IMG/VR virus record: IMGVR_UViG_3300046011_008818
Coordinates: 1-25,693 of that record
Origin: a virus
Reading direction: 5' to 3' (one strand)
DNA: 25,693 nucleotides
Made by a program: the position numbers and the translations under genes
Part shown: piece after piece, positions 4,960 to 25,693 of the stretch
How the letters are laid out: each line of letters opens with the position of its first letter
Numbering within the stretch: the first letter of the stretch is position 1
Notes under the pieces: generated by a model
What the model was told of the DNA's origin: nothing
What the model saw: the letters and a program-made list of their open reading frames with translations, nothing else
Databases searched by the model: none

Positions 4960-6576
4960 ATGGCTGTACAGGTAAACGTAAGAAAAACTATATTACAGTA
5001 TAGAGATCCGGATATATTTCTAGATGAATTGTCGGTAGTTGATACTTCTTCACAAAAAGGAGATACTAAACTAAACGACGAGAAAAATGACAACGTTCAG
5101 AAAAAATATTTTGGAACTAGTAAACCTTTAATAAGAATAAATTCCCAGGTTATTGAGGGATTATCTTACTTTAAAATGGATATGACTGGGTTCAAGCCAA
5201 CAGTTATATTTAGATTTGAAACTATAGATGAAAGATTTATATCTACTGCATTTCCAAAAGATGGCGATATTGTTTCAGTTTACATAAGACCCTTCGGTGA
5301 GATATTTAAACCGATAAGGATGGATTTTATAATAAACGAGGTTATATCACCATTCTCAAATGGTCCTTATAATGACTATGCGCCTTCTACTGGTAGATTT
5401 CAAAGCTATACTGTTTTAGGAGAGGTTAGGATACCTAAACTATACAAGGATATATGCAAAGTGTTTAAAGGTAATAGCTCAGATGCTTTACTTAAGATAG
5501 CAGAGGATCTTAATTTAGGATATGCTTCTAACGAAACGAAGACTAATGATTCAATGAACTGGATATCCCCAAATATTGATTACAATACATTGATTAAGCA
5601 TATTGTTAATGGATCTTGGTTAGGTGAGGAGGATTATTTCGATTGCTGGATAGATCAGTATTATAACTTAAATTTTATAAACTTAAAGAAGCAATTTGAT
5701 GACGTAAATCCTAGTATCGAGACAATGAGAATGGCTTACGGAGCGGATAGCTTTGGTGCGGTATTTCCAGGAGGAACTGAAACAGCTGAAGTTGAGTTCC
5801 CTTTGTTGTTAACCAACTCTACCCAATTTAGTAAATCCCCTCTTTTTATAAAAGATCTTTCGGTAGAGCAAAATGCTGGTTCTATAAATAACGATCTTGG
5901 TTATTTTCAAAAGGTACAATTTTACGACAGTAAGCTCGTTTCTGATAAACCTAAAAATAAATTCGTTGAGTATAATATAGAATCAGTTACGAACAAGAAT
6001 CTAGGATCAAGAGATAATATAAACAAGGGAAGACTTGGTGAGGATTTATATAAAGAGGAAATTAAAAAGACTTATGTTGGTACTCTATATTTTGAAAATG
6101 TTCATGAAAATTTCCAACAGGCATCTATACAGAACATCATTAATAGAAACGATAGTTATAAGATAATCCTTAAAGTTAAAAATAATTCATGGACACCTTT
6201 CCTTTATAGAGGACAGACATTTCCTGTAATAATTGTTTCAGAGGGTAGTCAGACAGCTAGCGCATCTTCTAAATACAGTCCAGGTGGAGGACAAAAATCT
6301 TCATTAGCAAATTCCGGTGATAAGAGAAATATAAATGCTTTTCTTTCGGGTAATTATGTTGTTTTAGGATTTACCGTGGAATATGATACTAGTGGGATAT
6401 ATCAAACAATGGTACTTGGAAAAAAACAATGGGCAATGAACCCTGGATTATCATCAGAACCTCAAGCTCTAGATCCTAAGATCTTTAATGCTGAGTTCGA
6501 TGATCTTGTTAGTAATGCTTCCACTATTTTACAAGAAAACACACAGAAGCTTAAGAGTGACATATACTCTAAATAA
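4960..6576 (+). CDS. Baseplate hub protein (gp27/gpD-like)
   Basis: This 538-residue protein has the layout of the gp27/gpD/gp44 hub family. A first beta-barrel-like domain (about residues 48-170) contains LIRINSQVIEGLSYFKMDM and RFETIDERFISTAFPKDGDI. The central segment is NWISPNIDYNTLIKHIVNGS (from about residue 200) followed by EEDYFDCWIDQYYNLNFI, the typical tail-hub element in which an inter-domain helix precedes a strand describing a coordinate-frame domain. The C-terminal half carries more strands and ends with a helical tail. Family knowledge: trimers of this protein cap the tail tube and hold the spike; the gp5-like spike gene lies two genes downstream. There is no enzymatic motif. 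It starts 2 nt after the LysM-like gene with A at -3 and no Shine-Dalgarno sequence. The exact family is recognised by pattern, not alignment. Confidence 0.7.
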   Translation: MAVQVNVRKTILQYRDPDIFLDELSVVDTSSQKGDTKLNDEKNDNVQKKYFGTSKPLIRINSQVIEGLSYFKMDMTGFKPTVIFRFETIDERFISTAFPKDGDIVSVYIRPFGEIFKPIRMDFIINEVISPFSNGPYNDYAPSTGRFQSYTVLGEVRIPKLYKDICKVFKGNSSDALLKIAEDLNLGYASNETKTNDSMNWISPNIDYNTLIKHIVNGSWLGEEDYFDCWIDQYYNLNFINLKKQFDDVNPSIETMRMAYGADSFGAVFPGGTETAEVEFPLLLTNSTQFSKSPLFIKDLSVEQNAGSINNDLGYFQKVQFYDSKLVSDKPKNKFVEYNIESVTNKNLGSRDNINKGRLGEDLYKEEIKKTYVGTLYFENVHENFQQASIQNIINRNDSYKIILKVKNNSWTPFLYRGQTFPVIIVSEGSQTASASSKYSPGGGQKSSLANSGDKRNINAFLSGNYVVLGFTVEYDTSGIYQTMVLGKKQWAMNPGLSSEPQALDPKIFNAEFDDLVSNASTILQENTQKLKSDIYSK

Positions 6577-9169: not shown

Positions 9170-10066
9170 ATGGGATTAGTAGACAGAAATAAATTAGAAA
9201 AGCCTAATATAGAGATATCTCACTATCTAGGCGTTGTTGTAGACAATAAGGATCCTGAGTTTAAATGTAGGGCTAAGATAAGAGTTTTTGGTGTTTTTGA
9301 TGAACTACTTGATGAGGATCTTCCTTGGGCACATCAAAGATTTGAACAAAGCTATGGATTAGGAGGCGGATCTGGGAGAATGTCTGTTCCTAAACTTGGT
9401 TCTGTTGTTCATGTGCAATTTAACAATGGTAACTATTATAGTCCTGAGTATAAGGCAGTCCAGGAATTGGCACCAGACTTGGTTGAAGAGATAAGAGCTA
9501 GTTATGATGGAGCACATTCTTTGATATACGATGGTATAGAAAGATTGAAGATGTATTATACTGTAGAGAAGGGATTAGTTATTGATCTTAAAGAATCAAA
9601 AATCATAATACGAAACGACAACTCTATACTTATAACACATGCTGATGACACCGCTTCAATAGAATTAAAAGGTGGAAAGATAACAAAGTATGCTGACCAG
9701 GAGATAGAAAATACTGCTATAACTAGGATCAAGCACAGTTCAGAAGAAGTTTGGATGGATGGTAAAACAACGAATCTAGGACACTCTCCGCTTTTTTCTG
9801 CTGTTTGTGCGGAGCCTTTATTTGATTTTCTAAAAAAATTAGCTATATCAGTCGATGCTAAAATGCCAGCAACACCTGGTGTTAATTCGACATTAGCTTC
9901 TAGTTTTGAGCAATTAGCAACAAGTCAAACCGTTAGGGTAACTAGGGAAAATGCTCCAGACTTTCCAGTAGTCCCTGCTACTGCTGATTCCCCTGTTGGT
10001 ATACCTAATACTGGTACATCAGGTACGTCTGGAACATCAGGAACTAGCGGAATAACAGCAGTCTAA
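9170..10066 (+). CDS. Baseplate central spike, OB-fold (gp5/gpV-like)
   Basis: This 298-residue protein opens with an OB-fold of the phage_base_V/gp5_OB type at about residues 18-100: YLGVVVDNKDPEFKCRAKIR, the PWAHQRF segment, and VPKLGSVVHVQFNNGNYYSP. It then has a strand-rich section (GLVIDLKESKIIIRNDNSIL and following short strands with SIELKGGKITKYA) that fits the intertwined beta-helix of gp5/VgrG spikes. The C-terminus is low complexity and ends in four Gly-Thr-Ser repeats. The T4 lysozyme domain is absent, as in gpV-type spikes, so peptidoglycan cutting must come from elsewhere. By family knowledge, a trimer sits below the gp27-like hub and punctures the outer membrane. It starts 19 nt after the repeat-tailed gene. 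No PAAR protein was seen in this window. Confidence 0.8.
   Translation: MGLVDRNKLEKPNIEISHYLGVVVDNKDPEFKCRAKIRVFGVFDELLDEDLPWAHQRFEQSYGLGGGSGRMSVPKLGSVVHVQFNNGNYYSPEYKAVQELAPDLVEEIRASYDGAHSLIYDGIERLKMYYTVEKGLVIDLKESKIIIRNDNSILITHADDTASIELKGGKITKYADQEIENTAITRIKHSSEEVWMDGKTTNLGHSPLFSAVCAEPLFDFLKKLAISVDAKMPATPGVNSTLASSFEQLATSQTVRVTRENAPDFPVVPATADSPVGIPNTGTSGTSGTSGTSGITAV
10013..10051 (+). repeat. Gly-Thr-Ser triplet repeat
   Basis: Four consecutive Gly-Thr-Ser units plus a final Gly lie near the C-terminus of the spike protein. The copies use different codons (GGT/GGA, ACA/ACG/ACT, TCA/TCT/AGC), so selection acts on the peptide. It is probably a flexible linker or a short collagen-like tether. 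Confidence 0.9.
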
Positions 10067-13000: not shown

Positions 13001-15164
13001 TCCTGTACCTAATCCGATAGATGGTAATCCGTACATAAGAATACCTCTTCCTATGATATGGACTATAGTTCCTCCTATATTAATACCTTTACCTTTCAAT
13101 TTGGGAATGTTAGTTATATTCATTCCATTTATAGGAGGGTTTATGCCAACTCCTTTAGTTTATCTGAAAGAGTTTGTCACGGGTAGTTCTTTATTTCTTA
13201 CTGGACTTAGAGGACCAAGATTTATACCTAGGAAATCTGATCCATCGGTTAAAGATCCATTTGAAAAAATTAAACAGGCTCTATCTTTTGGTATTCCTGA
13301 TAAATTAATTCCACTTCCTGGATTTGGCTTAGATGATCTTGATTCTCCGTCTAGGGTATTGAGTGACATTAGGAGTAATTTAAATAAGATATTTGATTCT
13401 GTTCCCCCTCCAGGTAATGTCCAGCAAATAAGGGATATACAAGAAAAGGAAAGGGAACTAAAAAGAAAGATAAGGGAAAAGGAAAAGGATTATAAGAGTA
13501 AAAGTGCACTTCTAGATTTACCAGCACCGGATCTTTCAGCTGAGGAAGAACAACTAAAAATATTACTAGGACAAAGGAAGGAAGGTTTAAAATCTGCCAT
13601 AAAGGATTATCTCAAAGTAAGTATACCTGATCCTAAATCAATATATTTTCCAAAAGATAAAGATAAGTTAAAAATAGACATACCTGGGATAATAAAATCC
13701 TTGAGGATACTAAAAGAAATGAGAGCTAGTTTAGTCCCTATAGATTGTCCTAACTTTGTGAACTTTAAGGATGAAATGAGGGAGGTTTTAAAACTAATGA
13801 AAATAGTTTGCCCTCCGATATACCTGGATGAAAATCTAGGAGTAGCTAATTCTAGTAAGATATTTTTAAGAATTAGAAAAGACCCTAGGTTAATGACTGA
13901 TGATGAATTCAGATCACTAGTAAAAGGGATAAGGGGATCTTCGATGGTGATAGCCAAAGTTATACTTTGGGGTAACAGATTCTCCGTAATAAAGAAAGTT
14001 AGAGACGGAGCATTCTCTTTAGTTGAAAGAAGTGAATTTGAAGGAGTTTTTAAATTTCCAGAAATAAAGATAACAAACTTAGCTCCTAGAGCACTTAAAT
14101 TTTTCAGAAAGAAAAATCCTATTATAGAAGCTATGAAGTTTCGTATAATGGAGGGATTACTAAATATAGAATATACGAGGGAGGATTTTTCAAGATATGT
14201 TAGATATGACGGTGAAGATCCTATACTAGTTATAAGAGTTAAGGATTTAAAGAGGTTGGTGTCTAAAAAGATTGGATTAAGTAGGATTGGTCCTTTTGAT
14301 CCTGTCAGACCCTTAGATCAAGAAGATCCGTTAATATCTAATTTCCCTTTTCCTAAAGGACCTTTATCATGTCTTAGCTCTTTGAATGGCGGATTCGGTA
14401 ATGCGGTTGCAGCTTTTGAATTACCTACAGTTTTTCCACCTAAGCAGGATCAAGTTGCTCAAATTCCAGGATTAGGAGGGATTGTACAAGTTACTATACC
14501 TGGATCTGTCGTAAAGAACTTTTTAATAAGTACTCTGGATAAATCATTAGATGCTGGAGCTCTCGAAAAAATATTCCCAGAAATATCGGATATAAATTCA
14601 CCCAAGTTTTTGAACATAGAGCCTTCTGATATACAGAAGATAGCTAAGAATCTGGTTACAGATTTAATAAAGCCAGAATCAAAGGATATACCTGCATTTT
14701 TAAATGTTCTAAAGATACCAGTGATTCCTAAATCTAGACCTACTGATATAATAGAGCAGGCGTTAATAGGAATGGGAGCTCCACCTCCTGCTAGAATCGT
14801 TTACAGTCTTTTCTGGCAATACTTCAAGAGTCTACCAAAAACGCCATTATCAGATATATTGGTGTTACCTAAAGTGACTGCTTCCGCAGAGTTGCTTTCT
14901 AAAATACCTTGGCCTCTTGCTGTGCTAATAGGAAGGGATATATTAAATATAATCAACCCGATATCTATGAACGACGACCATCCTGTTTGGAGAAGAATGA
15001 GCTTAAAGAATACATACTATGTGGTTTATTTAGACGAATTCTTAAGAAGCGCTGCTGATGTATCGGGATTATTCAAGTTTTTCCTCGGATCAGCAGATCC
15101 AGTATACCCTATACCGGAGCTTCCTTCCGAATTAAAAAAAGAGACCAATATAAAAAAATATTAA
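10068..15164 (+). CDS. Giant baseplate-associated structural protein (1698 aa)
   Basis: This is the longest complete gene here, starting 1 nt after the spike gene. Residues 1-300 are acidic with scattered Cys. About 320-860 is helical and charged (for example EIERYNQELTDQEEKYNNDR). Residues 873-923 form a Cys cluster including ENCPPVCCGEPGSD and CPTMFQRCWW. Residues about 937-1050 are a Pro-rich hydrophobic block with PSFIPIPVPNP and YIRIPLPMIWTIVPPILIPL. About 1115-1180 is a predicted coiled coil (EKERELKRKIREKEKDY), followed by a mixed C-terminal region with repeated short Pro motifs. It resembles very large structural proteins of jumbo myoviruses that keep such a P/I/L-rich core, which I recall only as a pattern. 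A tape-measure role is possible from the length, but the position after the spike gene and the modest coiled-coil content argue against it. Virion location is inferred from context. Confidence 0.62.
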   Translation: MESIESRIDSLLGKDFANMSADEILNTISGGQNFNIPYEDLQSKEGFEKELNKTQKEVDGVIKSLNPQKPPIPLKDIEDLACNYEGDDLYSRIILETIRREDKKLYANLINSAEYKNNLPISETDLGVEVKGVDLGFSKKIPSEGITKYLKRKNPGFLEKINEKIFDNLDPLILGKPSNSGSRKKRKLNILGFEIPLEFIMNGTQIVHVKIGGDEINLDRALEKINGLLKKQNENSKPCDFDGIDVNTSSERIDGFDANFFPDGDDPIVDDECLPGIPEDPITGDPILTKGNFDESLEDFCDPPIYEFKRDEVPDPEPPQVDVDSIDACLSSALDKSKKLEDDIKLLARWQMIEMSLQEILYHYEPIYEYQKSLSENWRDRITVNSGGDPSNFDIGIQILTYRDEIERYNQELTDQEEKYNNDRDLFLKENEIFTEDLFLLNVYDTELSSIGVEELFNNQINANKSPITYESSTDSWPIAEGVSKFLSNAESIRDIMIEKNFIGIIETKISDTQALLDASIQTLSERLQKQVTVSDVEKSFIPSSTTTSDLYGQGNESLEINARVFKSPAQLLLTTSSYTYDSYGYDFLEALKEFSVRYTTNFNKSLSELEFKLSLATDYGFPLPYKKVKKPSKITFTGKSTGPLGDVNIPDEEKIKIGNEYANNGGLLSDESADYLESYQFIKIDNIRTGFPDVAKFYDFIDKIVNTNRSKENIIEDIVEDRGILYGQLIEKSASPWLFFTPEERGDNDARDPSKSRPSSFTADGEPTPVFTEFYSNFKTKWNEKYILNKETYINPAIEDLKEKARKAGEGLGKTLPTSDVIGIRIFENYTDVKKKYDQIKETILLASQKINELNESLKPENVEKRFSDIKCAGAQSPPDEDDKENCPPVCCGEPGSDFKTGNYLLSSPPSSDCPTMFQRCWWKQFSKDLTKVGLLPYPNGLPPIEDPKYFLTPGPSVRLGLKYWPVGYLPPSFIPIPVPNPIDGNPYIRIPLPMIWTIVPPILIPLPFNLGMLVIFIPFIGGFMPTPLVYLKEFVTGSSLFLTGLRGPRFIPRKSDPSVKDPFEKIKQALSFGIPDKLIPLPGFGLDDLDSPSRVLSDIRSNLNKIFDSVPPPGNVQQIRDIQEKERELKRKIREKEKDYKSKSALLDLPAPDLSAEEEQLKILLGQRKEGLKSAIKDYLKVSIPDPKSIYFPKDKDKLKIDIPGIIKSLRILKEMRASLVPIDCPNFVNFKDEMREVLKLMKIVCPPIYLDENLGVANSSKIFLRIRKDPRLMTDDEFRSLVKGIRGSSMVIAKVILWGNRFSVIKKVRDGAFSLVERSEFEGVFKFPEIKITNLAPRALKFFRKKNPIIEAMKFRIMEGLLNIEYTREDFSRYVRYDGEDPILVIRVKDLKRLVSKKIGLSRIGPFDPVRPLDQEDPLISNFPFPKGPLSCLSSLNGGFGNAVAAFELPTVFPPKQDQVAQIPGLGGIVQVTIPGSVVKNFLISTLDKSLDAGALEKIFPEISDINSPKFLNIEPSDIQKIAKNLVTDLIKPESKDIPAFLNVLKIPVIPKSRPTDIIEQALIGMGAPPPARIVYSLFWQYFKSLPKTPLSDILVLPKVTASAELLSKIPWPLAVLIGRDILNIINPISMNDDHPVWRRMSLKNTYYVVYLDEFLRSAADVSGLFKFFLGSADPVYPIPELPSELKKETNIKKY

Positions 15165-15221
15165 TTTCTTGGAAATTTTAATCCAATTTTACACTAGAAA
15201 ACAATACAAACCCAAAATAAT
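15165..15221 (+). promoter_or_regulatory. Longest intergenic gap; candidate promoter/leader
   Basis: This 57-nt AT-rich gap separates the central baseplate block from the S1-like gene. It holds TTAATTTCTTGGAA at 15161-15174, nearly the same as an element in the 18563-18600 gap, followed by an A-rich leader without Shine-Dalgarno sequence (CAAACCCAAAATAATATG, ATG at 15222). No clear hairpin terminator is visible. A promoter reading is tentative. Confidence 0.28.
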
Positions 15222-16331
15222 ATGAAAAGCAAAAATTTTAGTTGTTTCGAGTACGAAGTTACTGAAAGAGAAAGATTACAATCGATGTATGATGGAACAT
15301 TTCCCGAAGATGTTAGAAATATCTCAGGGAAGGACATACAAAATAATACATCGGAGAGAGTTGTTATTACGTCCGTAGACGACGAAAAAGGTGTTGCCTT
15401 AGGTGAAACATCTTTTGGACAAACTATCATAATAGACACAAAGAAAGAGGAGAAAAACATGAGGAAGCTAGGATATCCATCTATGGAGATATCTAGTGGA
15501 CAGGTACTCGATGTTGTGATCCATAAAGATTCTGGAGGATCGTTCAACGGATCGGTTTCTGCCGGATACGAAAAAGCACTTAAGAAGGAGCTACATAGAT
15601 CTATCAAGGACGAGGATTGCGCATTTAAAGTTAGAGTGAAGAATGTTTGTAACGGAGGATTCATGGTGGATCTTTCTGGAATAGAATGTTTCCTACCTGG
15701 TAGCTTAGCAGCTGCAAATAGAATAATGAACTTCGCTGATTATGTAGGCAAAGAATTAAACGTTATGGTTGAGGTCTATGACCAGAAAAGAGATATCTTC
15801 GTAGTTTCATTTAAAAAATACCTAAGAAAAATCATCGACAGTGAGGTTCAAAATCTATCGTTCTCTAGCAAGTATGAGGGAGTCGTTACTGGAGCTTCTA
15901 ACGGAGGAGTTTTTGTTGAATGGGACGAGATCTATACAGGAATAATTCCTATGGACGACTCAAACAGAGAAACTCTTTCTTCTTATAGTGCTGGTGATGT
16001 TGTAGAATTTTATGTCTTAGATATAAAGAATCCGCAAAGAATATCCTTGTCTGTTACTCAGCCTAGCGAGAAAATGAAAAATATCCAAGAAATGAAGGAT
16101 ACTTCGTCTGAAGTTTTAGGGGAAAATACCGATTTGAAAATATATAAAGGAGAGATTACTAAAACTAAAACCTTCGGTGTTTTTGTTAAAATGGAAAACG
16201 GATTAACTGGACTTATCGAAAAAGAAAGATTAGTAAACTCTATTAAAGAATATGAGGTTGGAAAATCGGTTGATTTTTCTATCTTGAGTGTAGATAGTTC
16301 TACTCTCAAAATACAATTAATAGAGAAATAA
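15222..16331 (+). CDS. S1-domain RNA-binding protein (ribosomal protein S1-like)
   Basis: This 369-residue protein is built from OB-fold S1 modules. The first (about residues 44-115) is degenerate. The second is about 133-200 (FKVRVKNVCNGGFMVDLSGI, then ECFLPGSL and the VSFKKYLR end). The third is about 215-280 (YEGVVTGASNGGVFVEWDEI, then TGIIPMDD). The fourth is about 305-369 (YKGEITKTKTFGVFVKMENG, then LTGLIEKERL). G-x-V-x-x-x-x-x-x-GVFV and the G-x-IP or GL-I patterns are the S1 signature. Cellular bS1 has up to six modules and helps the 30S subunit bind mRNA; this version has four. It lies between baseplate genes but has no virion character, and it follows the largest intergenic gap, so it may have its own promoter. 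Likely role, by inference: helping ribosomes select phage mRNAs that lack Shine-Dalgarno sequences. Other RNA-binding roles are possible. Confidence 0.85.
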   Translation: MKSKNFSCFEYEVTERERLQSMYDGTFPEDVRNISGKDIQNNTSERVVITSVDDEKGVALGETSFGQTIIIDTKKEEKNMRKLGYPSMEISSGQVLDVVIHKDSGGSFNGSVSAGYEKALKKELHRSIKDEDCAFKVRVKNVCNGGFMVDLSGIECFLPGSLAAANRIMNFADYVGKELNVMVEVYDQKRDIFVVSFKKYLRKIIDSEVQNLSFSSKYEGVVTGASNGGVFVEWDEIYTGIIPMDDSNRETLSSYSAGDVVEFYVLDIKNPQRISLSVTQPSEKMKNIQEMKDTSSEVLGENTDLKIYKGEITKTKTFGVFVKMENGLTGLIEKERLVNSIKEYEVGKSVDFSILSVDSSTLKIQLIEK

Positions 16332-16335
16332 AAAA

Positions 16336-17778
16336 TTGGCTAATTTACTTGGTAATGATTTTTTCTATTCTGCTAAACTTGGTTTCGAATTTGAGTTTTA
16401 TAGCAACTTAAATAGAAACGAAATAGCATATGACCTTGGCAAGGTCCTTGGAAAAAAAGTGCTAGTTTTTAAAAAGTATCATTCCAACTTTAAACCAACT
16501 AAGGACATTTTTAAGTTAGAACCTGATTATTCGGGAGGCTCAAAAATGGTAGAATTTATTACTGGACCGCTTCCCTATTTTGAAGCGGTCGTAATATTAA
16601 TAAAAACCCTTAAGTGGATAGACGAGAATGGATATACTGATAAGAAATGTGCTTTCCAGTTCGGTGTTAGCATAGACACTTCGATTTATCCTGACGTTCC
16701 TCCTATGACCCAAATAAATATTCTTAAATTTATATTAGGGTTTGATGAGAATATTATCTATAAAAGATTCCCAGATAGAATGGGATCTTTATACGCTAAG
16801 TCTATAAAAAGAATAGTGCCTTCTAATAAGTTTGTAGATCCCACTAACATATCTTTTATAGACAAGAATCTTTTTGACGTTCCTCTCGAAAAAAACATGG
16901 GAATTAATTTCTTAAAGGTTCCAGATGGATATTTTGAGGTTAGATATTTAGGAGGTAAGGATTATCAGAAAAAATATAATGCTATAAAGGATGTAATAGA
17001 CTATATAGTAACCTACACTGTTGATGTTCTTAGATTCAATAACGGATTTACAGAGAATGATGTTAAGATTCTTAAATTATTTCTGAATGAGATATACAAG
17101 AATTCATCGACATTTATAGATCCTGAGACGTTTCAAAAGAATTATCCTCACTTAAATGTAATGGTTGATCTTAGATCTGATCCACAGATTTTAAGATCTT
17201 TCTTCCTTAATATAAGAGAGGTTCTTTACGATATAATAGTAGAGAATAATATAAAGGAAGGAATTATAAATTACGATAGTAATCTTGGTAAATTCCAGCT
17301 AAAAGATATTAAAACCCAAAGAGCTTACTTGTTGAAGGACTATGATATTTTAGAAAGCGAAATAGCTGGAAATGTTTTAAACTGTAGATTGTTTACTTGT
17401 AAACTTAACGATTGCACTATTGAAGAATGTGATTTGATAACGAATAATGAAATAAACAGATCTAAAATAATGGTTTCTGATATTTATTTCACAAACACAG
17501 TTCATGATAGTTATATTGATAACAAGGAGAAGGAAATAAACTGTGAAGTATTTGGCGGTATAATTAGATCTGGGTTTATTGGAAAACTTGCTACTATATC
17601 TCCAGAAACTGAAATAGTTAAAGAGGCTGAGGACGATAAGAAATTAAAAGGAAGTTCTAAAAAACAACAGTTCCCAAATAGAAACGAGGGTGAAGCTCTT
17701 TCTAAGCCAGTAAGATTTGGTGATAACAATTCTAAGCCATCAGGTATTCCTGGAATAAACTTCAAATCAAATAATTAA
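16336..17778 (+). CDS. Putative GS-fold amidoligase with beta-helix-like tail
   Basis: This 480-residue protein starts with TTG at 16336, 4 nt after the S1-like stop; the first in-frame ATG (residue 71) would remove key motifs, so TTG is preferred. Motifs fit the glutamine-synthetase-fold COOH-NH2 ligases (amidoligase family): LGFEFEFY at residues 15-22, MVEFITGPL at 71-79, CAFQFGVSID at 105-114 and YFEVRYLGGKDY at 199-210. In this family the acidic residues bind metal and ATP and the Arg contacts phosphate; the enzymes form amide bonds on peptides or proteins. The usual His in the third motif appears replaced by Gln or Phe, so activity is uncertain. Residues about 335-428 are strand-rich with CRLFTCKLNDCTIEECDLI, resembling a pentapeptide or beta-helix ladder. 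The C-terminal 50 residues are polar and disordered. The target may be a virion or host protein; this is inference. Confidence 0.5.
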   Translation: MANLLGNDFFYSAKLGFEFEFYSNLNRNEIAYDLGKVLGKKVLVFKKYHSNFKPTKDIFKLEPDYSGGSKMVEFITGPLPYFEAVVILIKTLKWIDENGYTDKKCAFQFGVSIDTSIYPDVPPMTQINILKFILGFDENIIYKRFPDRMGSLYAKSIKRIVPSNKFVDPTNISFIDKNLFDVPLEKNMGINFLKVPDGYFEVRYLGGKDYQKKYNAIKDVIDYIVTYTVDVLRFNNGFTENDVKILKLFLNEIYKNSSTFIDPETFQKNYPHLNVMVDLRSDPQILRSFFLNIREVLYDIIVENNIKEGIINYDSNLGKFQLKDIKTQRAYLLKDYDILESEIAGNVLNCRLFTCKLNDCTIEECDLITNNEINRSKIMVSDIYFTNTVHDSYIDNKEKEINCEVFGGIIRSGFIGKLATISPETEIVKEAEDDKKLKGSSKKQQFPNRNEGEALSKPVRFGDNNSKPSGIPGINFKSNN

Positions 17779-17782
17779 TGTC

Positions 17783-18562
17783 ATGACTGAAGCAGATCTA
17801 ATACAGGAAATAAAAGATGACATATCTCATTCTTGTGCATTACCTTACAATCTAAATGAGCAAGAGATAAAAAGGATCATTAAAAGAGCAAGAGCATACT
17901 TTTATGATAACTATCAATATGCAGTAGAAGATAGAATTTTTGTATTAGGGAGAGAGCTTTTTTCAACACCTGCTTTCAGAGCAACTAGACAAATACAAAT
18001 GCCTCAGTGTGTGAGATCTATATACGAGGTAAGAGAGGTTAACGGAGGAGGATTGATCGGTACACCGGATAAAGATTTTGGTGACTCTAAACTTTTAGGA
18101 TCTGAGCTTATGCTTTCTCCTTTTGTTGGGGATAACCTAGTTTATAGAACGGTTTTATATTCATTCTTCGATTTAGCAAAAGCTTATCTTTTGGAAACAT
18201 ATGCTTTTAATTACAACAAAAACACCAAAAGATTAACCATATTAGGTAGAGATCCTAATAGAACTTATCAAACAGACGGAGGAAGCTCCAGTACTCTTTT
18301 TACTGGTACCGATGTTGGTGTAAGAGCATACATTGATATACCAGAAGAAAATTTATATGATGACGAACTATTTGTTAGATATTGTTTAGCAGAGGGTAAA
18401 ATAAATATAGGTAGATTACTAGGTACATTCGAATACAATCTCCCTGGCGGTGTTAGAGTCAACTATAACAATATACAAACTATAGGAACCACAGAAAAAC
18501 AGGAGATTATCCAGATGATAAAAGACGAGAATACTCCTTCATACTTCTTGCAGTGGAATTAA
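17783..18562 (+). CDS. Virion structural protein, neck/baseplate-type (259 aa)
   Basis: This 259-residue protein begins with a helical segment (MTEADLIQEIKDDISHSCAL, then EQEIKRIIKRARAYFYDNY). A beta-rich middle follows, with RQIQMPQCVRSIYEVREVNG, an alternating hydrophobic helix (YSFFDLAKAYLLETYAFNYN) and TKRLTILGRDPNRT. It ends with CLAEGKINIGRLLGTFEYNL and PGGVRVNYNNI. The combination of an N-terminal helix bundle, IQ-x-P-x-x-V-x-x-I-x-E-V, a FNYN-x-N-x-x-RL-x-I-x-G segment and L-PGGV near the end resembles small structural proteins of T4-like and jumbo myoviruses. I cannot assign a specific gp number. It starts 4 nt after the amidoligase-like gene (an ATG overlapping the previous stop is a dead end after two codons) and precedes the gp25-like gene by 38 nt. 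Role is inferred. Confidence 0.55.
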   Translation: MTEADLIQEIKDDISHSCALPYNLNEQEIKRIIKRARAYFYDNYQYAVEDRIFVLGRELFSTPAFRATRQIQMPQCVRSIYEVREVNGGGLIGTPDKDFGDSKLLGSELMLSPFVGDNLVYRTVLYSFFDLAKAYLLETYAFNYNKNTKRLTILGRDPNRTYQTDGGSSSTLFTGTDVGVRAYIDIPEENLYDDELFVRYCLAEGKINIGRLLGTFEYNLPGGVRVNYNNIQTIGTTEKQEIIQMIKDENTPSYFLQWN

Positions 18563-18600
18563 TTTATTGTGTTATTAATTCTTGGAATATATAGAGCAAG
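18563..18600 (+). promoter_or_regulatory. Intergenic gap with repeated CTTGGAA element
   Basis: This 38-nt AT-rich gap lies before the gp25-like gene and contains TTAATTCTTGGAATATATAG (18575-18594). The core TTAATT-CTTGGAA matches the 15161-15174 element apart from one T. It lies 13 nt before the ATG, so transcription from it would give a very short leader, or it may be a translation-related site. There is no Shine-Dalgarno sequence. Promoter assignment is tentative. Confidence 0.28.
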
Positions 18601-18972
18601 ATGGCAAGATTTTCTGAAATTTATCCAAGGAATCCTGATGATCCAAATTACAAGGAGGGTCTTTTACATACCGATGATGAGGTAGAAATCCTTATTGGTA
18701 TGATTAAGAATTGTATGCTTTCTAGACCTGGTGAGGTTTTAGGAGATCCTTATTTTGGTATAGATCTAGAAGGACTTATATTTGATCTTGGTGTAGACCA
18801 GAATACTTTAACTAGAGCTATAGATCTTCATCTCATGACGTATGTACCTATAGCTTATTCCCTTTTTAATGTTGAATTCAAAATCGGATTTTTTCAGGGT
18901 GATACTAGAGATGCTTGCGTTATCGATTTTGCAATAAAGGGTAACCCTATATTAGGAATTAAAATATTATAA
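18601..18972 (+). CDS. Baseplate wedge protein, GPW/gp25 family
   Basis: This 123-residue protein matches the GPW/gp25 family in length and key features: EVEILIGMIKNCMLSRPGEV (residues 27-46) and GDPYFGIDLEGLIFD (48-62), which correspond to the family's helix, the P-G-E turn and the P-x-FG-DL segment. The conserved Glu is residue 45. The C-terminal half has the expected helix and long strand (FNVEFKIGFFQGDTRDACVI). By family knowledge gp25 sits between wedge arms and the sheath and starts sheath assembly; despite its historical name it is not a lysozyme. It is followed one base later by the gp6/J-like gene, the usual gp25-gp6 order. The start is ATG at 18601 with A at -3, after a 38-nt gap. 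Confidence 0.85.
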   Translation: MARFSEIYPRNPDDPNYKEGLLHTDDEVEILIGMIKNCMLSRPGEVLGDPYFGIDLEGLIFDLGVDQNTLTRAIDLHLMTYVPIAYSLFNVEFKIGFFQGDTRDACVIDFAIKGNPILGIKIL

Positions 18973-18973
18973 A

Positions 18974-20671
18974 ATGGATTTATTATCAAAAAATCGGGCA
19001 AAGATATCTGACTTATTAACACAGACTTTTGAGTTAATACAGGCAAGATATGGAATGTCTAATCAGCTATTTACCGTAGCTTCGGTGTGGGGACAAATAA
19101 TATTTGTTTTAGATAACCTTTCCCAATTTATCTTATTCTTCATTGAGGATTCAATAACTGAATTAAACATAAACACAGCTACCAGAGAATCGTCTATATA
19201 TGGATTGGCAGCTTTAACTGGGCACAATCCAACTAGAGCAATATCAGCTAAAGGAGAGGTTATTATAAAATGGAACGGTAAAGGATTTGAAGATATTGGA
19301 GGAAGCGCGGTTCTTATTCCTAAAAACTCCGAGATCAAATGTGTAAATAATGGTAAAACATATCTGCTTAAATTTCCACAAGAATACACAAGACTAAATC
19401 TAGATAGCACATCAAATTTAGCATGTTCTGTAGTAGAAGGAACGCTAAATGTAAATCAATATACCGGGAATGGTGGGAAACTCCAAAGCTATAATATCTC
19501 TTCAAGAGGAACTTCGAGTATAGAAAACTTTGAAGTTTATGTTAAAGTTAACGGTGTTGAATGGAAACAATACGATTCTCTCTATGATATTCCTAGGAAC
19601 GGATTAGGGTACATAGTAAAAAGTTCCATAATATCTGGTATAGATATATTTTTTGGAACGGGTGACTTTGGGTTACCTCCATCGTCTGGATCTATAATAG
19701 AAGTTACCTACCTAGAATCTGCTGGTGCTTCTGGTAATATAGTTGTAGACGACTCTGCACAGGTTATATTTAGATTTGATTCTGAGGGAACAGATCTTTT
19801 TGGCAATACAGTAACTCTTGCAGATGTTCTTCAAATTTCTTGTACTATTGCTCCACAACTTGGAGCTGGACAGGAGCCAGTAGATCTAACAAGACTAATA
19901 GCTCCTAAGACATCAAGAAGTTTTGTTTTAGCAAATCCTACTAACTACATAACTTTCTTTGAAAAGTTTGGGCAATTTTCCATAATAGAAGCCTTTACAA
20001 CTTTTGACGATCAGTACATAGATGACGATAATATTATTTACTTGATACTTGTACCAGATATACAATTGACTTTAAAAAGCAACGAAACGTATTTTGATAT
20101 ACCGGTTTCCAGATTTAAATTAACTCAACCACAAAGAGATAGAATAAATCAATTATTAGATGAGAGCGGACAGAAAATAGTTACCACTGAGGTAAGAATA
20201 TTAGATCCTGTCATTAAAAAATATGTTGTTAACATCTCAATAAGTATATTCGAGGGGAATGATCCTGATACTGTAAAGTCACAGATAGTAAATACAATGA
20301 GCGATTACTTTTTGAATATCAGAAGAAGAGATAAGATCCCGAGATCGGATTTAATCGCTGCGGTAGAAGAAATAGAAGGGGTGGATTCGGTTTCACTTTA
20401 TTTTGTTGGTGAAGAAAACGAAGCTGCTAAGGCACAAAATCCAAATTCACCGGAGATTGGCTTTGATGAATTTGGTGATATAGTTATGAGTAAGGACGAG
20501 ATAGTTATTATATCCGGAGGATGGGAAGATAGAAACGGGATCTTTTACGATCTTGGAGCTGGTATGAATACCCTGTCATCCATAAATATAGATATTAGAT
20601 CTATTGTCCCTTTCACTTATAACTCGAGAGTTAATAATATATTAAAGAGCTCGTTAAAAACAGGAAACTAA
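18974..20671 (+). CDS. Baseplate wedge protein, gp6/gpJ (Baseplate_J) family
   Basis: This 565-residue protein follows the gp25-like gene by one base. The N-terminal helical domain (RAKISDLLTQTFELIQARYG, then QIIFVLDNLSQFILFFIEDS) leads to the family's junction GLAALTGHNPTRAISAKGEV (about residues 77-96), where a small beta domain starts. Later PTNYITFFEKFGQFSIIEAF (about 322-341) matches the J-type insertion point, and the C-terminal part has VVNISISIFEGNDPDTVKSQ and DLIAAVEEIEGVDSVSLYFV, the usual alternating strand-helix ending. By family knowledge this protein forms the wedge core: it dimerises around the hub and changes shape when the tail contracts. Length is a little shorter than T4 gp6 and longer than P2 gpJ. 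No unusual insertion or frameshift is seen. Confidence 0.82.
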   Translation: MDLLSKNRAKISDLLTQTFELIQARYGMSNQLFTVASVWGQIIFVLDNLSQFILFFIEDSITELNINTATRESSIYGLAALTGHNPTRAISAKGEVIIKWNGKGFEDIGGSAVLIPKNSEIKCVNNGKTYLLKFPQEYTRLNLDSTSNLACSVVEGTLNVNQYTGNGGKLQSYNISSRGTSSIENFEVYVKVNGVEWKQYDSLYDIPRNGLGYIVKSSIISGIDIFFGTGDFGLPPSSGSIIEVTYLESAGASGNIVVDDSAQVIFRFDSEGTDLFGNTVTLADVLQISCTIAPQLGAGQEPVDLTRLIAPKTSRSFVLANPTNYITFFEKFGQFSIIEAFTTFDDQYIDDDNIIYLILVPDIQLTLKSNETYFDIPVSRFKLTQPQRDRINQLLDESGQKIVTTEVRILDPVIKKYVVNISISIFEGNDPDTVKSQIVNTMSDYFLNIRRRDKIPRSDLIAAVEEIEGVDSVSLYFVGEENEAAKAQNPNSPEIGFDEFGDIVMSKDEIVIISGGWEDRNGIFYDLGAGMNTLSSINIDIRSIVPFTYNSRVNNILKSSLKTGN

Positions 20672-20672
20672 A

Positions 20673-20918
20673 ATGGAAAAGAAAAGCTGGTTTGAATTTA
20701 TAAACTCTCAGAACGATGTTAGATCTAATGTTGGTTTTGATTACGAAGGAAAAATATTCCAAAAAACATTGTCTAATCCTGTATTAAATGGTGATAATAA
20801 TAGATTGGTAATATTAGCAAGTATAGAGAAAGTTGTTTATGCCTTGTTTGAAACTACTAAGTATATAAAGAACTATTTTAATTATACTGTTCCTAAAAAT
20901 AACAAATACGTAAGATAG
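20673..20918 (+). CDS. Small hypothetical protein in wedge operon
   Basis: This 81-residue protein lies one base from both neighbours, between the gp6/J-like gene and the giant last gene, so it is surely co-expressed with the wedge. It begins MEKKSWFEFINSQNDVRSN and has one likely amphipathic helix (RLVILASIEKVVYALFETTK) and a Tyr/Asn-rich end. No family is recognised. Neighbouring wedge genes and the small size make a baseplate linker or assembly factor plausible, but nothing in the sequence shows which. Confidence 0.7.
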   Translation: MEKKSWFEFINSQNDVRSNVGFDYEGKIFQKTLSNPVLNGDNNRLVILASIEKVVYALFETTKYIKNYFNYTVPKNNKYVR

Positions 20919-20919
20919 A

Positions 20920-23900
20920 ATGGCTTTTGAAAATCTTTTATTCTTTAATAAAAAAGGGGACCAATATAATTTTAAATGGAATGGTGAATATTGGGAGGGA
21001 TCGGTTCTATTTGAGGTAGTATCCGAAAAACTTTTTGAGATTGAACACATATTCGTAATTGAAAAATTTCTAAACCCATCTTCTGAAATAAAATATGGAT
21101 TTCCACACTCATATGGAGTTAGCCCAGGTGCTCCTGTTTGGAGAACTAGATGGGTTTCCAATTACGATGGAAGGACCAACGTAGAATCCATAATTTATAC
21201 ATACGAGCTTGGTGTTGATGGAAATCTGGATGCTCCTATACTCGTTAAGTCTAATAATATTGAGTTTTATCCTGAGGTTGTAAGTGGCGATACTATTTCA
21301 TCTCCTGGTGGAATAGTTATCAGTAACGATATCAATCCATCTTCAATGCAAATCAATATTGCATTAAACTCTAACACTGAAGGGATATATGACAGAACTT
21401 TAATATTAGAAGACTATACTGATCCTAATAATCCGGTAACTATAATGTCTATTAACTTCCACGGTGAAGTAGAAGGCGAAGATAGTAGATTGTCTGTTAT
21501 TCTAGGTAACTTTGGTAGATCATTTAATCCGGATGACGCTTTTATAGTAAGAGAAAGTGATATAAAGGAAGAATTTCCAGATTATGAGATAATAAACAAG
21601 AAAAGAAAGGAGTTACTTCTCACTGGAGAAAGTATATTCCCGTATTTAGGTTCATATAAGTCTCTTTTCAATGCAATAAAATTCTTTGGATACTATGATC
21701 TTAGAGTAAAAGAATATTGGCTAAATATAAAAAAAGATGATGCTGATACATTAACACCTTTACAGCAAAATCAAAAGATTTTAGATCAGCTATCACAGCC
21801 AAACTTAGAGGGCCAAAGTAAATTGGAACTGATAAGTAGTTTAATAAAAGACGAGAACGAGGGAAAATACAAGCAAGTAGAGATATACGGTAAAAAGAAG
21901 GACGGTACATTCGGACTAAAAAAACAGCTGGATAAAATATTCCCTTCTAAATCTTATAAGAAAACCGCTTTATTTGGTCTTTTCTATGATATTAACAGAG
22001 TAGTAGAGGATCAAGATGAGGATCAATACGGATACCCAATAGTTGAAGATAGCTTCTTGTTTAGTCCAGAGGAAGTACTTATAAAGCTATTCGGACTAAA
22101 AGAAAGATTAAAAAGAGATTACCTTCCATTAAATGCCAGGATTATTGATATAACCGGAGAGGGTGTTTATTTTAATATTTATAAAACAAGAGGCTGGACA
22201 GATTCTGTAGACATAAGTGAAATTAAAGGCGGTATAGAGGTTGACTTTACTGTTTTCCCTAATGAAGGTTACATAGAGGATTTAAGACCTTTTTATACAA
22301 AGCCAAATCAATCGGGCCTTTTATATCCTGCAGTAAATGGAACTGAGGCGGGCATAAGTCTTTATGGTAATACTGTAGATCCTTATTCGTTCTTCCAGGA
22401 ATATCCTAAATCAGCAATACCAGCATTAGAAACTGCAGTAAGAAGCTTTTATGATGATGTTAAATCTGGAGAAATGCCTAAGTTTCTTGGAGATGGGGAT
22501 TACGATCCGCCAGGGTATAAACTATTTTCTGATAGCAGTGACTATGTTTTTCCTGCTGGGTGTCCTATCATAATAACGAATAATACCTTTGATCTCTCTT
22601 GGGAAGAAATAAGTGGTAGCTGGACATCTTTCGATACAACAATAACCCTAACTGATTTAGATATAGCTAGTTACACTAGTACAGCTTCACAAAATCCAGG
22701 AGGACCTTTACAAAATGCCTATAGTACTGACACATTTACATTGCCTGATACTTTTCCTAGCAATACAACAATTAATATAGGAACAGGAAAGGATTGGTTT
22801 TCTACCACATCGCCAGAGGTTATATTTGTAAGAGTGGAATCAGTAGACTCTCCTGGTAATTTAGTTTTAGGATACTGTAGTTCCGGCGATTATAATACGT
22901 TAACCGGGGATCTTTATATTGAATTCGTATACACAAGGGGATCTGGAGAATATTCAAACTGGAAGGTCAGTCCGACGAATATTAAATTCAGTTCTTATGT
23001 TTTTGATTACTATCAGAATTTTGTACACTCTAACGGATTTTATTCTTGGGACAGAATACCATATTTGGATTTCTATGAAATAGAATGGACAATATACAAG
23101 GATGATGACGATAAGCCTTATTATTTCCAGATAACTGGTGATTTACCGGGATTGGATACTCTCGTGCATTTTTTACCGTATGACGGGGAGTACAATGTTA
23201 AATGTAGAGTTTGGGACACATTAAATTCTATATCTCTGGGTATAAAAAGAGGGATAGTAAAAGTAGATAAGAGGGGAATAGAACTAAATACGATTACTAG
23301 ATTTAGAGAATCCGAAATCTATAACTGGGACAATATGCCTCTTAAATGGGATAGCTATTTTTCTCAATGGATTTTCCCAGTAGAGAACACAAGTAACTTA
23401 TTAGATATTTCACAATTTATACAGAACTATCCTGAATACTCTAATAACTTTAATGAGGGTCAACAATGCGAGGTGTTAACTAAATTACCTGAAGTTAAAG
23501 CCACCGCAACTTTCGATATAGGTGCGGATGAAATAGGTATATCTAGTATTGTTAGCTCTTATAACGGAAGTGGATATGATTTAGCTACTGTTACTACTTT
23601 AACTCCTCATGGGTATTCATCAGGATCAACTGTTTGGATATACGATGCAGCCGGCGCTCCTTATGGACAATACCCTATAACAGTTACTGGAAGCAACACA
23701 TTTGAGATCCCTGACATAATTATTACTCCTATAAGCGGTGGGCATGTTTATGGATCGGGTACAATAAATATAATAATTGATTCCGTTCAGGTAGCGTCTT
23801 GTAATTTTCAGGGTGATTTAAATTCAACGACATCTTTACTGTATAGTATCATAAATGCTTCTCCAATAAATCCAAAGTATAAAGTTGTATCCTTAGTTGA

Positions 23901-25693
23901 TTCAGTTATTCCTGGATACAAGACTTTTACTATACAAGCGCCAAACAACTCCGGTTCTTTATGGAACGGTAAGTCAGTTATAATACAGGTAACCGGATCA
24001 ATACTAGCATCTCCTATATCTACTAGCTTCTCTGGTGGTGTTAACGAAACAGAATCTTACGTTCCTTATGACTTCGTTACTATCCCTAAAAAGGAAATGA
24101 AGTACTGGGGTACTAAAAGGTTATCATGGGAAACTTTTGAAGATTTTGCTTTTGAAAAAGCTTATGCTCACACATGGGATATGTACGACTACCATAATGA
24201 TTGGCTAGGCGGGTTCGATTTATATTCACTACAATATGGAGATAGGATCAGAGTTACCAGCGATTCATCTGGAATAGTACTAGCCGAAACTGATTCACCA
24301 AATAATAATTATTTAGATCTAGAAGAAGCTGCAGATCAATTAAATAATTCTACCGATGCAAACATCGATAGATTTGATTATACAGTAAGAGGATTCTCAG
24401 CTCTTCCTAATAATTTTTATATAAACAGCAATCCAATTTCACCAGACCTTAGCACAAACCCAGGTCCTAAGAACATAACTTCTAAATTTTTCAAGATTCC
24501 AACATATTCACCTGTTCTTTTCGAGCCAACAGGATTAGCTTGGGATGCTGATGGAGATATATGGGTAACTGGGGAGGATGTTATAAAATTTGATGGATTA
24601 AATTACACCACTTATGACTCTACTAACAGTGTAATACCTGGTGTATCTATTTTAACAAATTGTATAAAAATTGATAGGAACGATGTTAAATGGATCGGTG
24701 TAGAAAACAGTTTAACACCTCTGGTTAAAATAGACGATAGAGATCCTTCTAACAGCTTAGCTTATTCAGTAAGTGATTTTGTAGACAACGGAGGAAATCC
24801 TGTTAGTCCTATAACTGCTTCAAGTATAAATGCAATAGAAATAAACCCTCAGAGCGGTGATATATTTGCAGCATTTACATGTAACTCGTCTCCTTCTTTC
24901 GACGGACTTTTATTTTACGATTCACATGCGAATTCTTGGGGACTTTACACCACAGCTAATTCTGATATTCCTTCCGATAACATCAGAGATCTTAGATTAG
25001 AATATTACGGAATAAACAAATGGTATCTTTGGATTGCTACAGATAATGGCTTATCAAGATTTAATGGGGTTAGTTTTAAAAATTACAACGATGGAAATTC
25101 GGGACTACCTGATAATGATGTTTATTCGATTGAGCTTGATAAATTAGATCACAAATGGATAGGAACTGGATCTTCATTAGTTTATTGGGATAATACAAGA
25201 TGGGCAGTATGGAACAATGGAACCAATCCAGAGATATCAACTGGAAAGTTCGGTAATATCGTAGAGACTGGTAATGCTAACATATGGTTTACAATAGATC
25301 AGGGATCTTCTCCAGGAAATGCGGAGCTATATTTCTTTGATGGATATTTCTTTACTAAAGTTTTATACAGGAACGATGGCATTTCTTTAATAAATCCTTG
25401 TAATGTACTACACGGTAAAACACTTCTTTCTGCTCCATGGAAAACAATTAAAAATGGAGAAACTACATATCCTAGAAATTTGATATTCCTGACAGAGGAC
25501 GGCGAGATAGGAAAGCTTGACTATATTATACCTCATGTACATGCAAGTTCTAAAATATCTGATGTACAGGGTTGGGATTTCGTTTATCATGAATCTTCTA
25601 CACCTCTTCCTTCCATAGAGTATATTTATAACAGCGCTATAGGCAACTCACAGTTAGGATTTAGCTTTGTAGTAGGACCTTTTAATGACAATA
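20920..25693 (+). CDS. Giant wedge/fibre protein with C-terminal Reg_prop propeller, 3'-partial
   Basis: The ATG at 20920, one base after the previous stop, opens a frame with no stop to the window edge, giving at least 1591 residues. Residues about 90-190 look like an Ig-type beta-sandwich. About 237-267 (ESIFPYLGSYKSLFNAIKFF, then GYYDLRVKEYW) resembles the helical motif of gpI or gp7-type wedge proteins, followed by LKRDYLPLNARIIDITGEGV (about 398-417), a familiar junction in large myovirus baseplate proteins. The middle is made of polar Ig or PKD-like strands. Residues about 1195-1560 hold six or seven propeller blades (for example DADGDIWVTG, LDHKWIGTGS) of the Reg_prop type found in Bacteroidota sensor proteins. 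By position after gp25 and gp6 it is the likely gp7/gpI counterpart; the propeller may contact a receptor. The 3' end and any further domains are outside the window. Confidence 0.78.
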   Translation, partial: MAFENLLFFNKKGDQYNFKWNGEYWEGSVLFEVVSEKLFEIEHIFVIEKFLNPSSEIKYGFPHSYGVSPGAPVWRTRWVSNYDGRTNVESIIYTYELGVDGNLDAPILVKSNNIEFYPEVVSGDTISSPGGIVISNDINPSSMQINIALNSNTEGIYDRTLILEDYTDPNNPVTIMSINFHGEVEGEDSRLSVILGNFGRSFNPDDAFIVRESDIKEEFPDYEIINKKRKELLLTGESIFPYLGSYKSLFNAIKFFGYYDLRVKEYWLNIKKDDADTLTPLQQNQKILDQLSQPNLEGQSKLELISSLIKDENEGKYKQVEIYGKKKDGTFGLKKQLDKIFPSKSYKKTALFGLFYDINRVVEDQDEDQYGYPIVEDSFLFSPEEVLIKLFGLKERLKRDYLPLNARIIDITGEGVYFNIYKTRGWTDSVDISEIKGGIEVDFTVFPNEGYIEDLRPFYTKPNQSGLLYPAVNGTEAGISLYGNTVDPYSFFQEYPKSAIPALETAVRSFYDDVKSGEMPKFLGDGDYDPPGYKLFSDSSDYVFPAGCPIIITNNTFDLSWEEISGSWTSFDTTITLTDLDIASYTSTASQNPGGPLQNAYSTDTFTLPDTFPSNTTINIGTGKDWFSTTSPEVIFVRVESVDSPGNLVLGYCSSGDYNTLTGDLYIEFVYTRGSGEYSNWKVSPTNIKFSSYVFDYYQNFVHSNGFYSWDRIPYLDFYEIEWTIYKDDDDKPYYFQITGDLPGLDTLVHFLPYDGEYNVKCRVWDTLNSISLGIKRGIVKVDKRGIELNTITRFRESEIYNWDNMPLKWDSYFSQWIFPVENTSNLLDISQFIQNYPEYSNNFNEGQQCEVLTKLPEVKATATFDIGADEIGISSIVSSYNGSGYDLATVTTLTPHGYSSGSTVWIYDAAGAPYGQYPITVTGSNTFEIPDIIITPISGGHVYGSGTINIIIDSVQVASCNFQGDLNSTTSLLYSIINASPINPKYKVVSLVDSVIPGYKTFTIQAPNNSGSLWNGKSVIIQVTGSILASPISTSFSGGVNETESYVPYDFVTIPKKEMKYWGTKRLSWETFEDFAFEKAYAHTWDMYDYHNDWLGGFDLYSLQYGDRIRVTSDSSGIVLAETDSPNNNYLDLEEAADQLNNSTDANIDRFDYTVRGFSALPNNFYINSNPISPDLSTNPGPKNITSKFFKIPTYSPVLFEPTGLAWDADGDIWVTGEDVIKFDGLNYTTYDSTNSVIPGVSILTNCIKIDRNDVKWIGVENSLTPLVKIDDRDPSNSLAYSVSDFVDNGGNPVSPITASSINAIEINPQSGDIFAAFTCNSSPSFDGLLFYDSHANSWGLYTTANSDIPSDNIRDLRLEYYGINKWYLWIATDNGLSRFNGVSFKNYNDGNSGLPDNDVYSIELDKLDHKWIGTGSSLVYWDNTRWAVWNNGTNPEISTGKFGNIVETGNANIWFTIDQGSSPGNAELYFFDGYFFTKVLYRNDGISLINPCNVLHGKTLLSAPWKTIKNGETTYPRNLIFLTEDGEIGKLDYIIPHVHASSKISDVQGWDFVYHESSTPLPSIEYIYNSAIGNSQLGFSFVVGPFNDN
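24520..25520 (+). repeat. Beta-propeller blade repeats (Reg_prop-like)
   Basis: Within the last gene, blades recur about every 45-60 residues. Typical strands are LAWDADGDIWVTG, IKIDRNDVKWIGV, IEINPQSGDIFAAF, WYLWIATDNGLSRFNGVSF, IELDKLDHKWIGT and NANIWFTI; a seventh may be FLTEDGEIGKL. The GL-x-x-(F/Y)-(D/N)-G, nSGLP-x-(N/D)-x-V and WIGT elements are hallmarks of two-component-regulator propellers. Confidence 0.8.

Follow-up and report, generated by a model that had tools for sequence, protein, structure and literature searches.

A shortened bS1-like protein held in the baseplate block of a phage family that probably infects Bacteroidota

Why should a phage keep a protein resembling ribosomal protein bS1 among the genes for its baseplate? 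The question is raised by a reading frame on the plus strand, beginning with ATG, in the window, by which we mean the whole stretch of 25,693 nucleotides analysed here (IMG/VR virus record IMGVR_UViG_3300046011_008818). The original prediction, made from the letters, had described a 369-aa S1-like protein with three clear modules and one degenerate module. This description is confirmed by Pfam, profile alignment and an AlphaFold model (Table 1). A chance origin of the reading frame can be discounted because 228 viral stretches encode relatives.

Table 1. Features of the window around the S1-like gene, with the evidence for each
Feature	Coordinates	Strand	Evidence
gp5-like baseplate hub / tail lysozyme OB-domain protein	9170..10066	+	PHROG 430 E=2.2e-13
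Upstream neighbour, 1698 aa	10068..15164	+	no PHROG family found; upstream of S1 in family
S1 leader, A-rich, no Shine-Dalgarno 4-mer	15165..15221	+	leader count
Phage S1-like protein, 369 aa, four OB/S1 modules D1-D4	15222..16331	+	Pfam, bS1 match, AlphaFold model
N-terminal helix, residues 13-26, putative counterpart of the uS2-binding helix	15258..15299	+	model secondary structure, alignment
Module D1, residues 43-111, degenerate S1 module	15348..15554	+	profile, model, alignment
D1-D2 linker helix, residues 112-130	15555..15611	+	model
Module D2, residues 135-196, most conserved	15624..15809	+	pairwise identity, residue counts
Module D3, residues 217-277	15870..16052	+	Pfam stretch, model
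Module D4, residues 308-368	16143..16325	+	Pfam stretch, model
Amidoligase-like protein, C-terminal beta-helix, TTG start	16336..17778	+	PF12224 in relatives, Foldseek, start codons
Conserved structural protein, head-tail adaptor	17783..18562	+	PHROG 211 E=2e-6
Baseplate wedge protein	18974..20671	+	PHROG 219 E=1.8e-27

The Pfam S1 profile (PF00575) matches with E=1.9e-21 and 76.6 bits (cut-off 22), in three stretches (15621-15794, 15870-16055 and 16140-16319). The first, degenerate module emerges from a profile of 16 relatives, positions 12-366 of which align with residues 5-369 of PDB chain 9zcd_A, a bS1 that is identical over the bait stretch to that of Flavobacterium sp. IB48. In the AlphaFold model, strands lie at residues 43-111, where bS1 has D1. 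The top PDB sequence match is the E. coli bS1 chain 6bu8_Z (E=1.5e-21). Among NCBIfam models those of bS1 rank first, the best with 89.5 bits against an equivalog cut-off of 524, so that the protein falls below every listed bS1 cut-off. The modules follow the order D1-D4 of bS1 and the bS1 linkers are kept, as seen in the profile and the alignment and, for D1-D2, in the structure. The protein has four modules and ends after D4, whereas bS1 of E. coli and Bacteroidota has six. It belongs with bS1 and not with non-ribosomal S1 proteins: an identity as a single-domain S1 protein (RNase R/II, PNPase, Tex, NusA) was considered and rejected, since each of these aligns with one module only. The pI of the phage protein is 5.1, and bS1 is described as acidic (PMC10123108).

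The AlphaFold2 model, for which 36 family sequences served as input, has a mean pLDDT of 80.7 and a pTM of 0.57. A Foldseek search with this model places bS1 chains of 30S complexes on top (9gut_B, E=1e-22). With VIA-align, residues 28-202 superpose on residues 3-174 of bS1 in a 30S pre-initiation complex (9guq_B; Z 14.1, rmsd 3.1 over 166 residues), a match that spans D1 and D2 together. The longer superposition on 9gut_B has an rmsd of 20.7 over 243 residues. Such large values over long stretches are expected of flexible modules, and D3-D4 are therefore assigned from their order in the sequence and from the linkers. E. coli bS1 is anchored to uS2 by D1, and its D2 sits at the mRNA exit (PMC10123108). 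The model supports the view that the first modules of the phage protein correspond to these ribosome-side modules. The original prediction held that the roles of the modules could not be told by eye, and the comparison settles this in part. The N-terminal helix and D1 together match the module of bS1 that binds uS2, D2 would be the ribosome-proximal module with the mRNA pocket, and D3-D4 would be RNA-binding modules by their correspondence to bS1. However, one residue of the uS2-binding module is changed.

This residue is Lys43, which in E. coli bS1 inserts into the zinc pocket of uS2 (PMC10123108). The bS1-30S contacts given in that paper were mapped by alignment onto 35 rows of the window family, with eight other phage rows (L039, a distant relative, and seven huge phages). 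The Lys43 place is Gly in all 35 family rows (Gly66 in the window), so that the zinc-pocket lysine is lost; Lys is found in five of the eight other phage S1 proteins, in all eight Bacteroidota bS1 rows and in six of seven other bS1 rows. The Phe9 place is Tyr throughout the family (35/35; Tyr23 in the window), and Tyr stands there in six of eight Bacteroidota bS1 rows. At the Phe5 place there is Leu in 22 and Met in 13 family rows (Leu in 5/8 of Bacteroidota bS1), at the Phe79 place Phe in 20 and Tyr in 15 (Phe108 in the window), and at the Lys117 place Asn in 21 and Pro in 14. Phe120 and Phe130, the mRNA-pocket residues of D2 in E. coli (PMC10123108), are Phe in every family row (Phe147 and Phe157 in the window). 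Since all eight Bacteroidota bS1 rows carry Met where E. coli has Phe120, this phage Phe is common to E. coli and not to the presumed host. D2 is also the most conserved part of the protein, with a mean pairwise identity of 0.76 (residues 134-209) against 0.40 for the N-terminal part, 0.52 for D1, 0.58 for D3 and 0.59 for D4. In D4, Phe318, Phe321 and Lys314/Lys316 are nearly invariant and the aromatic pair is kept; we take these positions to be RNA-binding in S1 modules.

The loss of the zinc-pocket lysine and the absence of Phe at the Phe5 place speak for an RNA chaperone that works away from the ribosome, binding phage transcripts for protection, unfolding or nuclease activation while bS1 on the 30S is not replaced. 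The aromatic pair retained in D4 would suit such a protein, Bacillota have four-module S1 proteins, and host bS1 activates RegB of T4, as cited in PMC13157829. But the D1-D2 order is kept and D2 is the most conserved module, neither of which a mere chaperone would obviously need, and we regard this explanation as unlikely. The Bacillota proteins, of which two with 386-410 aa were included here (Limosilactobacillus, 410 aa), have the same number of modules as the window protein. To our knowledge, they are not firmly ribosomal, and the Bacillota and phage forms may have been truncated independently.

The tree was built on D1-D4 (320 columns) from 15 bS1 rows and 20 phage rows, the latter comprising 13 members of the 36-row family alignment and seven huge-phage records. 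Phage S1 and cellular bS1 are split by a 100/100 branch, in a tree that is unrooted and contains long branches. The window family forms one clade (100/99), which L039 joins (100/98), followed by Lak (94/80). By sequence, then, the window protein groups with the S1 of Lak and other huge phages, apart from bS1. Recent capture from a host was rejected, as there is no close bS1. The trees do not show phage S1 joining Bacteroidota bS1, although such a grouping is not rejected (AU p=0.371), and one with the two Bacillota rows is present in the best tree with a support of only 40/83. In Lak S1 (L170, L171) D4 is missing and an acidic tail takes its place. One record filed as Acinetobacter phage MD-2021a (L172, CAKLQH020000011.1) carries cmk-rpsA-himD and other housekeeping genes, and is a bacterial chromosome.

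How firmly is the gene tied to its place? Two scans of viral contigs, the largest of 244,850 bases, gave 81 loci including near-duplicates (39 in the first scan and 42 new ones among the best 80 of 228 relatives), with identities to the window protein down to 40%. An upstream partner, the 1698-aa or the gp5-like gene, lies on the same strand in 77 of 77 testable loci, a downstream partner, the amidoligase-like or the PHROG 211 gene, in 80 of 80, and the wedge gene is downstream of S1 in 61 of 61. In a reverse search from the PHROG 211 gene, S1 is present in 75 of the best 80 of 185 relatives and the other five contigs stop short of its position; thus no clear S1-less member of the family was seen among these 80. 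The original prediction had called the placement of S1 in a late structural operon unusual, and for this family the opposite holds: the position is the rule. Its claim of tail genes on both sides applies to the block, with the hub/lysozyme and wedge genes, but not to the immediate neighbours, which are the family-less 1698-aa protein and the amidoligase-like protein. The gp5-like gene reaches 23.5 bits with Pfam Phage_base_V (E=7e-5; cut-off 23.8), and a gene with a weak wedge match (PHROG 261, E=0.029) lies between the PHROG 211 and wedge genes. The large proteins at 4960-6576 and 20920-25692 match PHROGs of unknown function best (35886, E=8.6e-19, and 28177, E=9.5e-22). No tRNA genes were found in the window or in six loci searched.

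The order gp5 - S1 - amidoligase-like - PHROG 211 - wedge is retained in LR756500 (462 kb) and in L039. Within 6 kb of S1 in LR745206, LR756501, LR756502, LR756504, Lak-A1 and Lak-B1, no homologues of the window neighbours were found, and the baseplate position therefore belongs to one branch of the huge phages. This distribution bears on the idea of a virion component, an OB-fold protein of the baseplate or tail that is perhaps injected with the DNA and acts early on host ribosomes. A place in the baseplate block in every testable locus, and also in L039 and LR756500, is what such a protein would show, and packaging was raised for phage bS21 by Chen et al. 2022 (PMC9723584). Against it, the homology is to bS1 and not to baseplate OB domains, and the wider family, as the six huge phages illustrate, is untied from these genes. 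We think a virion component decidedly unlikely.

A ribosomal protein of another kind occurs in some of these phages. bS21, which contacts D1 of bS1 in E. coli (PMC10123108), is encoded by four of the six huge phages with S1 and was found in two of ten long, incomplete contigs of the window family. No terminase or capsid genes were recognised among ten open reading frames around bS21 on two contigs of the family. In Bacteroidetes phages of lakes, bS21 is expressed late, with the structural genes (Chen et al. 2022, PMC9723584). From this and from the baseplate block we infer that the S1-like protein is probably also made late.

The leaders bear on how phage mRNAs may be initiated. A Shine-Dalgarno (SD) 4-mer is found in none of 42 distinct S1 leaders. 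The block TTGGAAATTTT / TTGGAAAT(T/C)TT at 15169-15179 is strongly conserved in 13 aligned loci, and ACAAAC occurs in 21 of 42 S1 leaders against 3.0 in shuffled sequence, while it is rare in other leaders. Over the whole family, 66 of 400 distinct leaders contain an SD 4-mer (0.17 against 0.07 when shuffled), and in the window alone 4 of 18. The leader of the 1698-aa gene lies partly within the coding sequence before it, and this gene supplies 23 of these 66 (24/29 counted by gene). Without it the count is 43 of 372 (0.12 against 0.04), ranging by gene from 0 to 17/46 (the gene at 20673). Since the counts exceed the shuffles, the leaders are SD-poor, not SD-free. Their A content is 0.58 at -16 to -11 against 0.40 further upstream, and A reaches 0.76 at -3. 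At -6 it is 0.48 over all family leaders (against 0.40) and 0.88 for the S1 gene. Positive determinants in Flavobacterium are A at -3, -6, -12 and -13, and the same source puts D4 of bS1 near mRNA nucleotides -12 to -15 (PMC6847099).

We rejected the missing SD as evidence for an S1 function. The same count on 40-48-kb stretches of three phages gave 26/41 for T4, 1/51 for Flavobacterium phage MaF61 and 0/62 for Tenacibaculum phage pT24, and the S1 search found no match in the latter two. Though these are two phages only, SD is rarer still in them than in the window family; the lack of SD thus seems to track the host and not S1, and the leaders suit the ribosome of the presumed host without indicating S1. 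As to this host, the wedge gene has relatives in phages of Prevotella (Lak), Tenacibaculum, Flavobacterium and Chryseobacterium and, as an exception, in Sphingomonas phage PAU. Bacteroidetes hosts were also predicted for the Mahaphages, that is, Lak and five genomes of >634 kb (Al-Shayeb et al. 2020, PMC7162821). The window family therefore probably infects Bacteroidota.

Transcription signals were sought as well. In the window, ACAAACCCAAATAAY, a pattern of the leaders, shows no enrichment (4 against 2.6 expected, three mismatches allowed), and over 14900-19200 a sigma-70 scan gave 16 hits against 18.8 in shuffles and a terminator scan 3 against 1.5. Of 42 distinct leaders compared for the gene at 18601, 40 contain a AATATATA box (0.6 in shuffles), mostly at -14 to -17; the window copy of the box is GAATATATA at 18585-18593. 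The box looks promoter-like, in which case the leader of the gene at 18601 would be very short or absent.

Taking these results together, we lean, with modest confidence, towards a shortened phage bS1 (D1-D4) that is made late and is predicted to serve SD-independent initiation. The S1-like protein would be produced alongside the baseplate proteins. Its N-terminal helix and D1 would dock on the 30S near uS2, D2 would be placed at the mRNA exit channel, and D3-D4 would be offered to the A-rich stretch 11-16 nucleotides upstream of phage starts. Phage mRNAs would then initiate without SD pairing on Bacteroidota-type ribosomes, the phage protein replacing host bS1 or acting alongside it, and this may benefit phage over host mRNA. 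Given where D1, D2 and D4 of bS1 lie (at uS2, at the exit, and near -12 to -15), D1-D4 would suffice to reach the A-rich leader, no more. We favor this reading because D1-D4 is collinear with bS1 and the model matches bS1 on the 30S, because D2 is most conserved with both pocket Phe kept and Tyr and Phe/Tyr stand at the Phe9 and Phe79 places, and because of the A-rich leaders, the fixed baseplate position and the bS21 companions. It is weakened by the loss of Lys43, by Leu/Met at the Phe5 place, by the absence of D5-D6, and by a location among structural genes that suits a virion protein equally.

The truncation could also serve host shut-off, if the protein fills the bS1 site on the 30S as a decoy and, without D5-D6, blocks initiation on host mRNA. 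A precedent is a phage bS21 that was incorporated into E. coli ribosomes and brought translation down to ~5% (PMC6375957). But a blocker should harm phage mRNA too, because SD-poor, A-rich leaders are common to phage and Bacteroidota, and the place in the baseplate block points to a need for synthesis. Such a decoy seems to us very unlikely.

The amidoligase-like gene may be joined to S1 in its translation. Among 24 relatives, 17 match PF12224 with E<=1 (best 7.5e-4), while the window copy has no Pfam match. An AlphaFold model of the amidoligase-like protein (pLDDT 75.3, with the tail 429-479 below 50) was obtained, and in Foldseek the protein weakly resembles glutamine synthetase (E=9.7e-5, TM 0.22). 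The alignment omits L025 because its frame stops early. In the window, 4 nucleotides separate the S1 stop from the TTG start at 16336-16338. TTG is the start in all 38 window-family loci where the gene abuts or overlaps the end of S1, beginning 2 to 5 positions downstream of the final base of the S1 stop, or 13 or 22 upstream of it. ATG is the start in all 12 loci where the gene begins 69-1651 positions past S1. This rule is obeyed in 50 of 51 distinct loci, the exception being the distant L039, where the gene overlaps S1 yet starts with ATG. For other genes TTG was chosen in 0 of 365 distinct contexts, by a start picker that prefers ATG. In eleven of the separated loci, inspection by eye showed a hairpin with a T-run in six, an inserted reading frame in three before the ATG, and GAATATATA directly before the new ATG in eight. 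With descent counted, there are four independent pairs on supported branches (six on all), which is not significant (sign test, p=0.125). The pattern of start codons suggests that the amidoligase-like gene is translationally coupled to S1.

Gaps between the two genes can hold other reading frames. In L027 there is one of 420 aa, which from a motif seen by eye presumably resembles S-adenosylmethionine synthetase, and in L141 and L149 a different one of 137-141 aa. A bolder idea is that S1 and the amidoligase-like gene form a two-gene cassette for remodelling ribosomes within the baseplate operon. Because its TTG lies at the S1 stop, only ribosomes fresh from completing S1 would make the amidoligase-like protein, and it would ligate amino acids to S1 or to a ribosomal protein, so that late ribosomes are re-fitted and chemically tagged. 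We give this idea very little credence.

As the original prediction noted, bS1-like proteins are known from large phages: rpS1 of huge phages was published in 2020, a few genomes encoding as many as six S1 domains, and identifiable SD being rare in the phages that carry it (PMC7162821). These proteins fall into the same tree group (100/100) as the window protein. The window protein differs in being locked in a baseplate block, which among the compared records is shared with LR756500 and L039; the passages of PMC7162821 considered here give no such family, module assignment or locus. With bS1 of Flavobacterium and E. coli it has in common the D1-D4 order, the linkers, the N-terminal helix and the D2 motif GGF...FLPGSL, but bS1 has six modules and Lys43, and the window protein four and Gly. 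Like bS21 of the lake phages (PMC9723584), it would belong at the mRNA exit channel of the ribosome, and its gene, too, stands among structural genes. However, bS21 is a different protein with TerL/MCP neighbours there, and none of these were recognised among the ten reading frames around bS21 in the window family. The Microcystis phage PhiMa05 is another jumbo phage with bS1, accompanied by five other ribosomal proteins and thought to be of Vampirovibrio-like host origin (PMC13157829); it was not among the matches of the S1 search. A phage S1 prediction is mentioned in PMC8545117, and BFVD holds viral entries named "30S ribosomal protein S1" (373 and 385 aa) with strong structural matches. 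Two Lak papers and one on a marine megaphage contain no "ribosomal protein", and a jumbo-phage survey no "S1 domain". In the openly accessible texts covered by our literature search, neither this locus nor an assignment of modules to D1-D4 is described, and neither is the conservation of D2 or the use of TTG.

Phage S1 was already known, but the fixed place, the module make-up and the apparently coupled neighbour give it a well-defined, testable form. The SD controls, though two phages are few, warn that the correlation of phage S1 with missing SD in print (PMC7162821) may merely mirror the host phylum. Bacteroidota initiate without SD pairing, and the reading of A-rich leaders by bS1 was still speculation in 2019 (PMC6847099). 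A natural, minimal S1 of D1-D4 from phages of presumed Bacteroidota hosts would provide a ready reagent for testing it.
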